Source of the DNA: Lachnospiraceae bacterium
Lineage (GTDB): Bacteria; Bacillota; Clostridia; Lachnospirales; Lachnospiraceae
Assembly: GCA_024696005.1 (NCBI GenBank)
Contig: JAILHF010000043.1
Span: 1 to 41,866, forward strand
DNA length: 41,866 nucleotides
Direction: 5' to 3'
The notes under the pieces are model-generated. The model had not been told where the DNA came from and made no database searches. It was given only the letters and a program-made list of their open reading frames with translations. Of the stretch, positions 1 to 37,226 are shown one piece after another (the first letter of the stretch is position 1; every line of letters begins with the position of its first letter). A program made the position numbers and the translations under genes.

Positions 1-349
1 AGAGGATGTAAAAGACTGCCGCGTAGGCGGCCAGACCGCTGCCCGTGAGTGCGGGCGGCGCCGAGAATACCAGATACAATACCACCGCATTGGTGATGGT
101 CCCGATCAGCAGCCAGGGCCGGAAGCGCCCCCACTTTGTCCGGGTCTTTGCCACGATCATGCCCATGATCGGGTCGTTAAATGCGTCAAACACGCGGGCC
201 GCCATCATGATCGCGCCCATGACCGTTCCCGCGATGCCCAACAGATCCTGATAATAATACAGGATGTAGCTTGCCGAAAGCATGTACACCATGTCCTTGC
301 CCACGGCCCCCAGACCGTAGGCTGCCTTCTCCTTGCCCGATAACCTCAT
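1..349 (-). CDS. GPH-family sugar:cation symporter (partial, N-terminal part)
   Basis: The frame starts at ATG 349 after a GAGGAGG ribosome site and stays open to the left edge, so only about 116 N-terminal residues are visible. The translation contains DAFNDPIMGMIVAKTRT followed by KWGRFRPWLLIG. This is the cytoplasmic loop typical of the glycoside-pentoside-hexuronide (MelB/XynB/UidB-like) branch of the major facilitator superfamily, with the conserved Asp-Pro, Arg-Thr and WG-RPW positions. Hydrophobic segments flank the loop. Members import mono- or oligosaccharides with Na+ or H+. The substrate cannot be told from this part, and the gene's downstream neighbours lie outside the window. The family call is firm. 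Confidence 0.88.
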   Translation of the reverse strand, partial: MRLSGKEKAAYGLGAVGKDMVYMLSASYILYYYQDLLGIAGTVMGAIMMAARVFDAFNDPIMGMIVAKTRTKWGRFRPWLLIGTITNAVVLYLVFSAPPALTGSGLAAYAAVFYIL

Positions 350-33998: not shown

Positions 33999-34095
33999 AT
34001 ATCCATAAATTTTTGTTATGGTTTCAAAAAGCTTATTTTTCATACTGTTCCGGGATCTCATCACAAGCGAATCCCCATATACAAAGGAGCCTATT

Positions 34096-34971
34096 ATGCT
34101 GGATTATAAGAAATGCGAAGTATTCGCAACGATCGCCGAAGAAAAGAATCTGACAAAAGCAGCGGAAATCCTGGGCTACACGCAGCCCGGCATCAGTAAC
34201 ATCTTAAGGAGCATGGAAGAGGAAACCGGTTTTCCGCTGTTTATCCGTCATCACAGCGGTATGACCCTGACAAAAGACGCCGAAGTCCTTTTACCCCGGG
34301 TCCTGGCGATCTTAGCCGCCTTCCGTTCCGCGGATCAGACGATCGACAGTATCAACGGCATCAACGAAGGACATATCAGCGTCGGGTCCTACAGCAGTAT
34401 GTCCATATCCTTCTTAACGAAATGGATCGAAGGCTTTTCCCAGGAATTTCCGAACATCACTTTCTCCATTATCGAAGGAGGCTATAAAGAACTGGAAAAT
34501 GCGCTGGACTCCTATACCATCGATCTGGCTTTGATGAGCCGTCAGCCCTGGCATAACTATGACTGGACACACATCATGAACGATCCTATGCTCGCGGTTC
34601 TTCCTGCTGACAGCAACTTTAAGAAAAACTATGTGAACCTGAAAGACTTTCATAACAAACCGCTGATCAGCCACAGTGAAGGATCCGATCCCGATGCGGA
34701 GAAGATCTTTGAAGAATTCCGGGAAATGAATATCGAACCGATCTGTCAATACCGTATCTTTTTTGACCGGACCATGATGTCGATGATCGAGCATCACCTG
34801 GGCTTCGGGATCATACCCGAACTGGTGACCCGGCATTATAACGGAGAACTGAAACGTCTTCCTTTCCGTCCGGCTCTGTCCCGGGAACTGGGGATCGCAA
34901 CTTTGCCCAATGTAACGCAGTCGCCGGTGGTGAAGCTGTTCATAAAGTATTGCGTGGAGCATATAGAATAA
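34096..34971 (+). CDS. LysR-family transcriptional regulator of the adjacent catabolic operon
   Basis: 291 residues from ATG 34096 (AAAGGAGC before it), typical LysR length; the longer frame from 34018 lacks a ribosome site. The N-terminal helix-turn-helix is FATIAEEKNLTKAAEILGYTQPGISNILRSMEEETGFPLFIRH. A substrate-binding domain with HISVGSYSSMSISFLTKW and FGIIPELVTRHYNG follows. It is divergent from livK with 274 bp between, the usual arrangement for a LysR regulator of the neighbouring operon. The inducer is probably the imported substrate or a product. It has no partner gene downstream. Confidence 0.9.
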   Translation: MLDYKKCEVFATIAEEKNLTKAAEILGYTQPGISNILRSMEEETGFPLFIRHHSGMTLTKDAEVLLPRVLAILAAFRSADQTIDSINGINEGHISVGSYSSMSISFLTKWIEGFSQEFPNITFSIIEGGYKELENALDSYTIDLALMSRQPWHNYDWTHIMNDPMLAVLPADSNFKKNYVNLKDFHNKPLISHSEGSDPDAEKIFEEFREMNIEPICQYRIFFDRTMMSMIEHHLGFGIIPELVTRHYNGELKRLPFRPALSRELGIATLPNVTQSPVVKLFIKYCVEHIE

Positions 34972-35071
34972 AATTCACGGTTCTGCGGGCGAATTCACTA
35001 AACTGGGTTTTGTCGTTTTGTTCCGTTTGCATGCATCTGCTTAGGGCGGGGATGTTTTTTGAGCGTCACCG

Positions 35072-35280
35072 CGGATATAAGTCCCCGGCGCTGATTCCGT
35101 CGCCTGGCAGCTCTGATGAAGCTGCGTAAGCTTTTCGCCGCAGTCCGGGACCGCTCTTCGACGGCACATCCATGTGCCGCTCGAGCTTTCGGCGCCGTCC
35201 GGGCGCCTCATCCCTGTTTGGTTCAGCGCAGCTTCAAGAGCATGCCGGCTCCTCCATAATGCGCCGGATCCTTATATCCG
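35072..35280. repeat. Foldback A: nested imperfect inverted repeats
   Basis: Outer arms 35072-35091 and 35261-35280 (perfect CGGATATAAG/CTTATATCCG plus CCGGCGC/GCGCCGG), then 35110-35126 with 35227-35241 (AGCTGCG/CGCAGCT type), and an innermost CGGCACAT (35162-35169) with ATGTGCCG (35172-35179). Confidence 0.7.
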
Positions 35281-35322
35281 TCGGTTGACGCTTCGAAAAC
35301 GATTGAACCGCCCTGCGCATCT

Positions 35323-35399
35323 GAGGCTCACTCCACCCCTACTTGTAGAGGATAGGCGAGCATCTCGCTTAGCCTCTACAAGTAGGGGCGGAGTGAGCC
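35323..35399. repeat. Foldback P: 77-bp near-perfect palindrome
   Basis: Arms 35323-35350 and 35372-35399 are 28 bp with one mismatch. The 21-bp centre contains a further AGGCGAG/CTCGCTT stem with one wobble. The arms start with AGGCTCACTCC. Confidence 0.92.
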
Positions 35400-35431
35400 T
35401 AGGGAAACGCGGGACGGATTTGAATTTGTGG

Positions 35432-35716
35432 GTGCGGAACCGGGGACAGAAGCCGAAAGAAGAAAGCTTTATGCCGCGCGAGGAGATCATCCCTGTTTGA
35501 GCCCATTCACGGAGCGCCTTTAGCGGCAGGCGGAATCCAGCGCCTACAGCCGTGTGACAGGCGGTGCAGGGCTGCGAGACGGCGTGCCGACTCGCATGTG
35601 CCGGCTGTCCACGGGCTGTTGGCGATTAGTCCGCCGAGAGCGTTGCGACGGGGCGCAAACAGGGATGTCTCCGGGAGCAGCAAAACATAATCCCGGCTTC
35701 TGTCCCCGGTTCCGCA
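35432..35716. repeat. Foldback B: 285-bp nested inverted repeat with perfect 23-bp ends
   Basis: 35432-35454 and 35694-35716 are perfect 23-bp inverted repeats. Nested inside are CATCCCTGTTTG (35487-35498) with CAAACAGGGATG (35656-35667), CGCCTACAGCCGTG (35541-35554) with a near-complement at 35610-35624, GACAGGCGGTGCA (35556-35568) with 35597-35609, and a TGCGAG/CTCGCA core. CATCCCTGTTTG also occurs at 35209-35220 in foldback A. Confidence 0.85.
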
Positions 35717-35831
35717 GAAAAATCTCCTCCGTCCTGCGGAGCCGTCATGCGAACGTAACAGAACGATAAACCCCAGTTTTGCAAAATCAACCGAAGAACC
35801 GTCCCCCTGATTGAATCGGAGAACCAGAAAT

Positions 35832-35859
35832 AAAAAAGCTCCCGGGAAATCCCGGGAGC
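35832..35859 (-). terminator. Second intrinsic terminator downstream of tuf
   Basis: GCTCCCGGG (35838-35846) and CCCGGGAGC (35851-35859) form a 9-bp stem. On the minus strand it is followed by six T (35837-35832). Confidence 0.8.
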
Positions 35860-35890
35860 CTGATATTACTTGGGTTGGGCTGTAACTCCA

Positions 35891-35948
35891 CAATAGAATC
35901 CCCGCTTCGCAGGGATTCTATTGCGGGCGTGGCAGTCGCCACACCCGC
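35891..35948. repeat. Two stem-loops between the tuf terminators
   Basis: CAATAGAATCCC (35891-35902) and GGGATTCTATTG (35912-35923) form a perfect 12-bp stem. GCGGGCGTGGC (35923-35933) and GCCACACCCGC (35938-35948) form another with one mismatch. Neither has a T-run. Confidence 0.7.
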
Positions 35949-35959
35949 ACGAAAGCATG

Positions 35960-35996
35960 AAAAAAGACCCGGTCAGAAGCAAGCTTCTGCCGGGCC
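35960..35996 (-). terminator. Intrinsic terminator of tuf
   Basis: A GC-rich stem (35966-35979 with 35984-35996, CAGAAG/CTTCTG core and CCCGG outer part) is followed on the minus strand by six T (35965-35960), about 40 bp after the tuf stop codon. Flanking bases (GAAAGCATGAAA/TTTCACGCTTTC) extend the stem. Confidence 0.88.
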
Positions 35997-36038
35997 TTCT
36001 TTCACGCTTTCGCGGAGTTATTTCTCGTTGCTGTCACT

Positions 36039-37226
36039 TTATTCAACAATCGTAGCCACACGGCCGGATCCTACGGTACGGCCACCTTCACGGATAGCGA
36101 AGGTAAGACCCTGCTCCATAGCGATGGGGTGGATCAGCTCGATGCTCATCTCAACGTTATCGCCGGGCATGCACATCTCGGTACCCTCGGGCAGGTTGCA
36201 GACACCCGTGATATCGGTTGTACGGAAGTAGAACTGAGGACGATAGTTGTTGAAGAAAGGAGTGTGACGGCCACCTTCATCCTTGGTCAGAACGTACACC
36301 TGAGCGGTGAACTTCTTGTGGCACTTAACACTGCCGGGCTTAGCAAGAACCTGTCCGCGCTCGATGTCGGTACGGTTCACACCACGAAGCAGAGCACCGA
36401 TGTTGTCACCTGCCTGAGCTTCGTCAAGCAACTTGTGGAACATCTCGATACCGGTAACAACGGTCTTGCGGCTCTCTTCACGAACACCGACGATCTCGAC
36501 TTCCTCGTTCAGCTTCAGAGTACCACGCTCTACACGGCCGGTAGCAACAGTACCACGACCGGAGATGGTGAATACGTCCTCGACAGGCATAAGGAAAGGC
36601 TTGTCGGTATCACGCTGAGGATCGGGGATGTAGCTGTCCACGGTATCCATCAGCTCCATGATCTTGTCGCCCCACTCGCTGCTGGGATCTTCCAGAGCCT
36701 TCAGAGCGGAACCCTTAACGATAGGGCAATCATTGAACTCATACTCAGCCAGCTGATCGGTAACTTCCATCTCAACCAGCTCAATGAGCTCGGGATCGTC
36801 AACCATATCGCACTTGTTCAGGAATACTACGATGTAAGGCACACCGACCTGACGGGACAGAAGGATGTGCTCCTTGGTCTGAGCCATAACACCGTCGGTA
36901 GCTGCAACCACCAGGATAGCGCCGTCCATCTGAGCGGCACCGGTGATCATGTTCTTAACGTAGTCGGCATGGCCCGGGCAGTCAACGTGTGCATAGTGTC
37001 TCTTCTCGGTCTCGTACTCAACGTGAGCGGTAGAGATGGTGATACCACGCTCTCTCTCCTCGGGAGCCTTATCGATGTTCTCGAAATCGGTAGCGGTGTT
37101 ACCTGCAACTCTCTCTGCCAGAACCTTGGTGATAGCTGCGGTCAGAGTGGTCTTACCATGGTCAACGTGACCGATGGTACCGATGTTACAGTGGGGTTTG
37201 GATCTGTTAAATTTCTCCTTAGCCAT
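36039..37226 (-). CDS. tuf: Translation elongation factor Tu
   Basis: 395 residues, standard length. GTP-binding motifs GHVDHGKTT (P-loop), [12 protein letters not shown] and NKCDMVD are present, and the C-terminal domains are complete up to [17 protein letters not shown]-Tu carries aminoacyl-tRNA to the ribosome A site. It is last in the str cluster, has its own promoter upstream and two terminators downstream, so it can be transcribed separately at high level. Confidence 0.98.

Follow-up and report, generated by a model that had tools for sequence, protein, structure and literature searches.

A gene-less foldback block between lysR and tuf in a Lachnospiraceae genome holds two structured RNA cores in head-to-head repeat elements

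Introduction

What is a strongly self-complementary block of about 780 bp, without a recognisable gene, doing between a LysR-type regulator gene and tuf? We address this question for positions 35000-35779 of a 41,866-nucleotide stretch of DNA (contig JAILHF010000043.1, assembly GCA_024696005.1) from a Lachnospiraceae bacterium, the whole of which stretch we call the window. An earlier note on this DNA had described a multibranched foldback, recognised in it no named element or RNA class, and kept two readings side by side, a structured plus-strand RNA and a mobile foldback or MITE.

Structured repeats of this general kind have precedents. In the Bacillus cereus group, the repeats bcr1-bcr18 are described as dispersed, 100-400 bp long and bearing features of mobile elements, some of them being transcribed and having conserved RNA structure (PMC6542083, PMC3446304).

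Results

A foldback block with two modules

The block lies between the gene of the LysR-type regulator (34018-34971) and tuf, which encodes EF-Tu (36039-37226, minus strand). Its features are as follows.

35000..35779, no strand assigned: the full composite, in which two homologous shells, each with an RNA core of its own, face each other head to head
35000..35033, no strand assigned: left outer arm
35000..35362, minus strand: left element, running from the 5' shell at the central palindrome through the TwoAYGGAY core to the 3' shell at the outer arm
35072..35280, minus strand: closing stem of the TwoAYGGAY module, with 20-nt arms (35072-35091 / 35261-35280)
35092..35259, minus strand: TwoAYGGAY RNA (RF01731), Rfam match over positions 1-168 of 168
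35324..35400, no strand assigned: central palindrome where the two 5' shells join, with arms of 37 bp (92%)
35363..35779, plus strand: right element, with 5' shell, new RNA core and 3' shell to the outer arm
35433..35716, plus strand: closing stem of the new RNA module, with 23-nt arms (35433-35455 / 35694-35716)
35499..35656, plus strand: new RNA core, a long bulged hairpin of ~160 nt (model R1)
35746..35779, no strand assigned: right outer arm

Of the 34 positions in the outer ends (35000-35033 and 35746-35779), 29 pair, confirming the 34-bp inverted ends of the earlier note, and self-BLAST extends the outer stem to ~106 positions at 72% (34977-35081 against 35697-35802). On the plus strand, G-U accounts for three of the five end mismatches and the other two are of other kinds; with three pairs only, the suggestion that they reflect selection on RNA pairing is not supported. 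Between the ends lie three foldbacks, with arms of 20 nt (85%), 37 nt (92%; 35324-35360/35364-35400, the central palindrome) and 23 nt (100%). The three tandem foldbacks and the 23-bp arms of the earlier description thus stand, while the arms it gave as 28 bp are the 37-bp arms of the palindrome and its single three-arm interior resolves into two modules and a junction.

Folded as plus-strand RNA, the block reaches -463.8 kcal/mol, against -307 +/- 7.7 for 20 shuffles (z -20.3); the minus strand gives z -20.4 (20 shuffles). Four short open reading frames of 71-128 aa overlap the block and Pfam matches none of them at E 0.1, so we reject a protein-coding reading and agree with the earlier note that this is a gene-less foldback. 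A scan of 34950-36050 with a sigma-70 pattern returned 0 promoters (shuffles, 0.5). A terminator-like hairpin with 11 pairs and a T-rich tail (35836-35861, minus strand) sits downstream of tuf, in the interval that separates this gene from the block.

The left element carries a TwoAYGGAY RNA

A named RNA class is in fact present: the left core matches the covariance model of TwoAYGGAY RNA (RF01731) over its full length at 62.3 bits, above the curated cut-off of 43. Members of the family are expected to have AYGGAY in two hairpin loops; in the window one loop reads AUGGAU and the other CGGAC. In the same genome 24 copies exceed the cut-off and two further, partial matches fall short of it, and the RNA is present in 26 of 35 genomes of the genus (this one included) at 0-24 copies per genome. 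With many copies in its own genome and presence-absence between relatives, TwoAYGGAY behaves as a dispersed repeat. Sorted by eye among the matches listed, 22 of the 24 copies form two subfamilies of 11 each, about 310 bp and 212-223 bp long in copies with ends that could be set; the window copy and one other fall outside both.

Two other Rfam RNAs occur beside or inside TwoAYGGAY copies in the genus, but belong to separate Rfam families. At the first bases of two contigs of the own genome (loci L241 and L242, contigs C12 and C21; positions 28-112, minus strand), a GA-cis RNA (RF02987, 62.4 bits) lies inside a partial TwoAYGGAY copy, the overlap being seen at two contig ends; a nested repeat or a swapped RNA arm may account for it. 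In a relative (G007, locus L035), two Clostridiales-1 RNAs (RF01699; 1895-2077 and 2361-2529, minus strand) lie ~1 kb or less from a same-strand TwoAYGGAY, and are perhaps a mobile RNA repeat of like kind.

The right element carries an RNA core unmatched in Rfam

Neither in the window nor in any relative scanned did a model of Rfam 15 (4227 models at their own cut-offs) match the right core, and Rfam likewise gave no match to the new core in 20 loci from 11 genera of the family. Matches of miRNA models (mir-3160, mir-7563, MIR9783 and others) were rejected as far below their cut-offs and as reflecting the long hairpin only. BLAST located dispersed relatives of the core in genomes G003, G009 and G014, and an alignment of 11 sequences, that of the window among them, folds into a long bulged hairpin in which 26 of 57 pairs are compensated, with the conserved stretches TTAGC, ATCC, TAG and GCGTT. 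The covariance model built from this alignment (R1) gives the window core, itself one of the 11 sequences, 137.6 bits.

A search with this model found the core in 10 of the 35 genomes of the genus, again counting its own, where it is single-copy. Once antisense echoes are excluded, it occupies 13 places in G009, 8 in G014, 6 in G003 and 14 in G043, one of the last being weak and some lying at contig ends. Under stricter filters, 14 of 299 genomes sampled from the family carry it, namely its own and 13 of the 298 others, each of these 13 labelled a different genus. A sequence pattern for the core retrieved 23 stretches, all in Lachnospiraceae records, including a rumen metagenome genome and strain AB2028, which has TwoAYGGAY, new-core and core-less elements, and two exact patterns had 0 matches in viral contigs. 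Across 44 aligned copies, 52 of the 57 pairs show at least two Watson-Crick types and the four conserved stretches hold at 90% or more. The closest relative seen for the right element is in G044 (75% over 295 positions).

Some new-core elements (L037/L180, L048/L163, L050/L181 and L179) have extra long hairpins inserted either into one arm or into the terminal loop, with CATGTATGG, CCATACATG or similar at the apex.

Two homologous shells meet head to head

When the left half is reversed, the 5' shells of the two halves are alike (score 79, shuffled maximum 37), as are their 3' shells (76, shuffled maximum 35), whereas the cores are not (42, within the shuffled maximum of 53). AGTGAGCC is common to both 5' shells at the central palindrome. 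Since the halves share both shells, the 37-bp palindrome is two 5' shells meeting and the 34-bp ends belong to the two 3' shells; the two RNA cores point in opposite directions, away from the palindrome.

Only the window's right 3' shell is clearly like one copy of the first TwoAYGGAY subfamily (42, shuffled maximum 33), and the other three shell sides score 22, 25 and 23 against that copy, inside the shuffled range. The order of short motifs is no more than suggestive. Head-to-head arrangements recur elsewhere: among the matches listed, TwoAYGGAY neighbours within ~600 bp form 9 divergent, 2 tandem and 0 convergent pairs, in G044 a new core on the plus strand comes after two TwoAYGGAY copies on the minus strand, and G070 has a minus/plus pair of new cores.

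Both RNAs are carried by MITE-type elements in sister species

In four sister-species genomes (G003, G009, G040 and G043), CTAAAACTTCCCAC ends bound many copies of the new core, other copies having different or unrecognised ends, and the same ends bound TwoAYGGAY as well. The end pattern matched 69 times in G003, 21 in G009, 16 in G040 and 113 in G043, against 3, 1, 1 and 1 for the reversed pattern used as a control. TwoAYGGAY was found in 10 of 20 end-bearing loci scanned, its elements being mostly about 264 bp where both ends are in view. The sister-species copies come mostly from metagenome assemblies, in which hairpins can be mis-assembled.

Exact 7-bp target duplications flank 11 of the 27 end pairs in the loci retrieved, and six of seven positions match in 3 more; in 2000 shuffles, exact duplications averaged 0.64 with a maximum of 5. 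The 11 elements hold the new core (4), TwoAYGGAY (4), no core (2) or a masked interior (1). A cruder earlier test had given exact duplications in 3 of 14 new-core elements.

A candidate parent is also present. G043 has a 1,584-bp element, beginning at a contig edge, with exact CTAAAACTTCCCAC ends and an IS4-family transposase of 460 aa that scores 560 bits against NF049925 (cut-off 250) and has Pfam DDE domains; the right end of this insertion sequence is identical to a MITE end over 18 bp. NF049925 exceeds its cut-off in two of the 35 genomes of the genus, G043 and G045. The G045 transposase is related to that of G043 (64% identical), and its IS4-family element has similar ends, with no 7-bp duplication seen in its sequence. 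G003 and G040 have no NF049925 match despite their elements with matching ends, and G009 has a fragment only, at a contig end.

One orthologous intergenic site was read by eye in 20 loci, of 32 matching genomes. It holds a new-core element in G009 (L213) and in G003 (L214), in opposite orientations that reflect either in-place inversion or independent insertion, a core-less remnant in G043 and a different hairpin element in G040; no element was seen in the remaining 16 loci. This is the pattern of lineage-specific insertion in relatives.

The window's own copy

The window block is a member of TwoAYGGAY and of the new RNA family, and shows dispersed-repeat behaviour. No target duplication is visible at 35000/35779, and none rises above shuffles in the two own-genome TwoAYGGAY subfamilies (11 and 10 copies). 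The ends of the block (AAACTGGG...) differ from CTAAAACTTCCCAC and so do not share the terminal repeat of the IS4-family MITEs, and NF049925 has 0 matches in this genome. An IS4-driven move of the window copy is therefore put forward by analogy only: it may have moved as the sister-species elements did. A search of the remaining 34 genus genomes for a LysR ortholog at E 1e-60 gave none. Dispersed copies with target duplications, which the earlier note had expected of a mobile element, are found as to the copies (24 of TwoAYGGAY), with duplications in sister species and none in the own genome.

Integron attC sites and REP/RAYT repeats, which the strand-specific hairpin brings to mind, were set aside on grounds of length, the absence of arrays and the IS4-type ends.

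Host regulatory roles

The Rfam type label of TwoAYGGAY would make these RNAs cis-regulatory leaders or terminators. By crude ORF calling, 23 of 24 TwoAYGGAY copies and 59 of 60 new-core copies do lie outside long open reading frames, as such a role would have it. The same calling gives mixed orientations to the neighbouring genes for both RNAs: (+,+) 8, (-,-) 5, (+,-) 4, (-,+) 2 and 5 that could not be called for TwoAYGGAY, and (+,+) 11, (-,-) 18, (+,-) 13, (-,+) 8 and 10 that could not be called for the new core. With 19 of 24 and 50 of 60 copies, respectively, scored on both sides, this mixture argues against a leader role, and we regard a cis-regulatory reading as unlikely.

TwoAYGGAY RNAs could instead be small RNAs that sequester CsrA, the block then being a host regulatory locus. 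CsrA binding has been predicted from motif matches (PMC4333381), and in agreement with it GGA is kept in the second hairpin loop of all 24 aligned copies and in the first loop of 21. Over the 35 genomes, however, the RNA and CsrA are not associated (both in 21, RNA only in 5, CsrA only in 8, neither in 1; Fisher p 1.0, one CsrA match being a 20-residue fragment), and two genomes that lack CsrA, with completeness ratings of 99 and 100%, have 9 and 11 copies of the RNA. TwoAYGGAY could still bind CsrA where CsrA exists; as an account of the block, sequestration seems to us quite unlikely.

Selection on RNA or on a DNA palindrome

The cores might also be DNA-level foldbacks only, persisting through self-templating of palindromes with no selection on RNA. 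Palindromic DNA would compensate its pairs just as well, so we took strand asymmetry as the test. In the 44 new-core copies, the RNA strand has 118 G-U against 14 A-C cells, and 66 against 11 if only columns whose most frequent pair is Watson-Crick are taken; the structure here was an RNAalifold prediction to which the alignment had been fitted with G-U as a pair, and this favours G-U in the count. Independently of the alignment, though with RNA energies that reward G-U, 53 of the 55 new-core copies give a better fold on the RNA strand than on the complement. The p-values of this folding test overstate the case because the copies are related.

For TwoAYGGAY, the better fold is that of the RNA strand in all 24 copies of the own genome and in 11 of 20 copies elsewhere (35 of 44 overall), and alignment A3 has only about 12 G-U against 6 A-C. 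A bias present in the own genome and gone elsewhere may be local; the strand evidence for TwoAYGGAY is clear in the window's genome only, and its absence outside speaks for the palindrome reading. So do core-less short elements of about 110-125 bp with exact target duplications, which show that the core is not required for movement. Against that reading stand the one-strand wobble bias and the conserved unpaired stretches of the new core, seen in several genera. By these alignment and folding models, selection on the new core acts on the RNA of one strand, and pure DNA foldback appears distinctly improbable.

Finally, a single ~780-nt multibranched plus-strand RNA closed by the 34-bp ends, akin to other large bacterial ncRNAs and one of the readings left open in the earlier note, would suit the very stable fold and the closing outer stem but is highly improbable and not supported, since the two conserved cores read oppositely, so that any one transcript is antisense to one of them, since both strands fold equally well, and since BLAST in 40 genomes (its own and 39 others) matched parts only, the relatives conserving halves and the window alone having the whole layout.

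Discussion

We consider it probable that two non-autonomous elements make up the block as an inverted dimer, sharing one shell but differing in their RNA cores, and that these cores are MITE-type cargo in relatives. What is directly seen is how the block is built, the RNA families to which it is assigned, the number of copies and their patchy distribution, the covariation and the strand bias and, for the sister species, target duplications and a matching insertion sequence. Two repeat elements with homologous 5' and 3' arms would have been joined head to head, through insertion of palindromic copies or template switching between them. The minus-strand TwoAYGGAY and the plus-strand RNA unmatched in Rfam would be alternative cargoes of MITE-type elements in relatives, moved in trans by a transposase, which in the sister species with matchable ends would be of the IS4 family. 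Since their copies face the adjacent genes in no constant way, both RNAs are presumably transcribed as small units of their own, and their most likely role would be that of the element's own small RNA. Each of the two readings in the earlier note was partly right: both modules are RNAs with structure, which relatives carry as cargo of dispersed MITE-type elements.

The nearest described kind are the bcr repeats, which are likewise mobile repeats, some with structured RNA; in the published descriptions they differ in their hosts and in a mobility tied to a TTTAT motif, the likeness being drawn from their descriptions. Compared with them, the sister-species elements have IS4-type ends, 7-bp duplications and a traceable IS4-type parent, and one shell is common to two unrelated RNA cores, one of these unmatched in Rfam. 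With IS4-family MITEs the sister-species elements share short length, lack of genes, terminal repeats identical over 18 bp to those of an IS4-family element and target duplications; they differ in having a conserved RNA fold as cargo, and the window copy differs further in having neither such ends nor a duplication. Passages of the literature that treat TwoAYGGAY present it as a listed candidate RNA or with predicted CsrA binding, and those under open licence contained no report of it as cargo of IS4-type MITEs or in head-to-head twins. Searches on Clostridiales-1 RNA, on GA-cis RNA, on REP or MITE in Lachnospiraceae, and on MITE with structured RNA, riboswitch or IS4 returned nothing relevant.

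TwoAYGGAY, a catalogued RNA, thereby gains a concrete biology, as cargo of a short transposable element with a traceable parent insertion sequence in some species, and our results speak against a CsrA sponge as its general role. Alongside it we describe an RNA family that is unmatched in Rfam 15 and has strong covariation. Because both RNAs ride small transposable elements in sister species, what was taken for regulatory RNA looks like cargo of jumping DNA. This raises the question of why a MITE keeps a strand-specific RNA fold if core-less shells also move. More tentatively, and with somewhat more doubt than conviction, a class of transposable elements across the Lachnospiraceae may consist of a shell and an interchangeable RNA core, with at least two unrelated folds, TwoAYGGAY and the new bulged hairpin, swapped between the same inverted-repeat shells and kept by selection at the RNA level, perhaps for the element's own benefit through control of transposition or of host tolerance, and with head-to-head twins as a recurrent form. 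Dispersed RNA motifs that emerge from covariation screens may often be the cargo of mobile elements.
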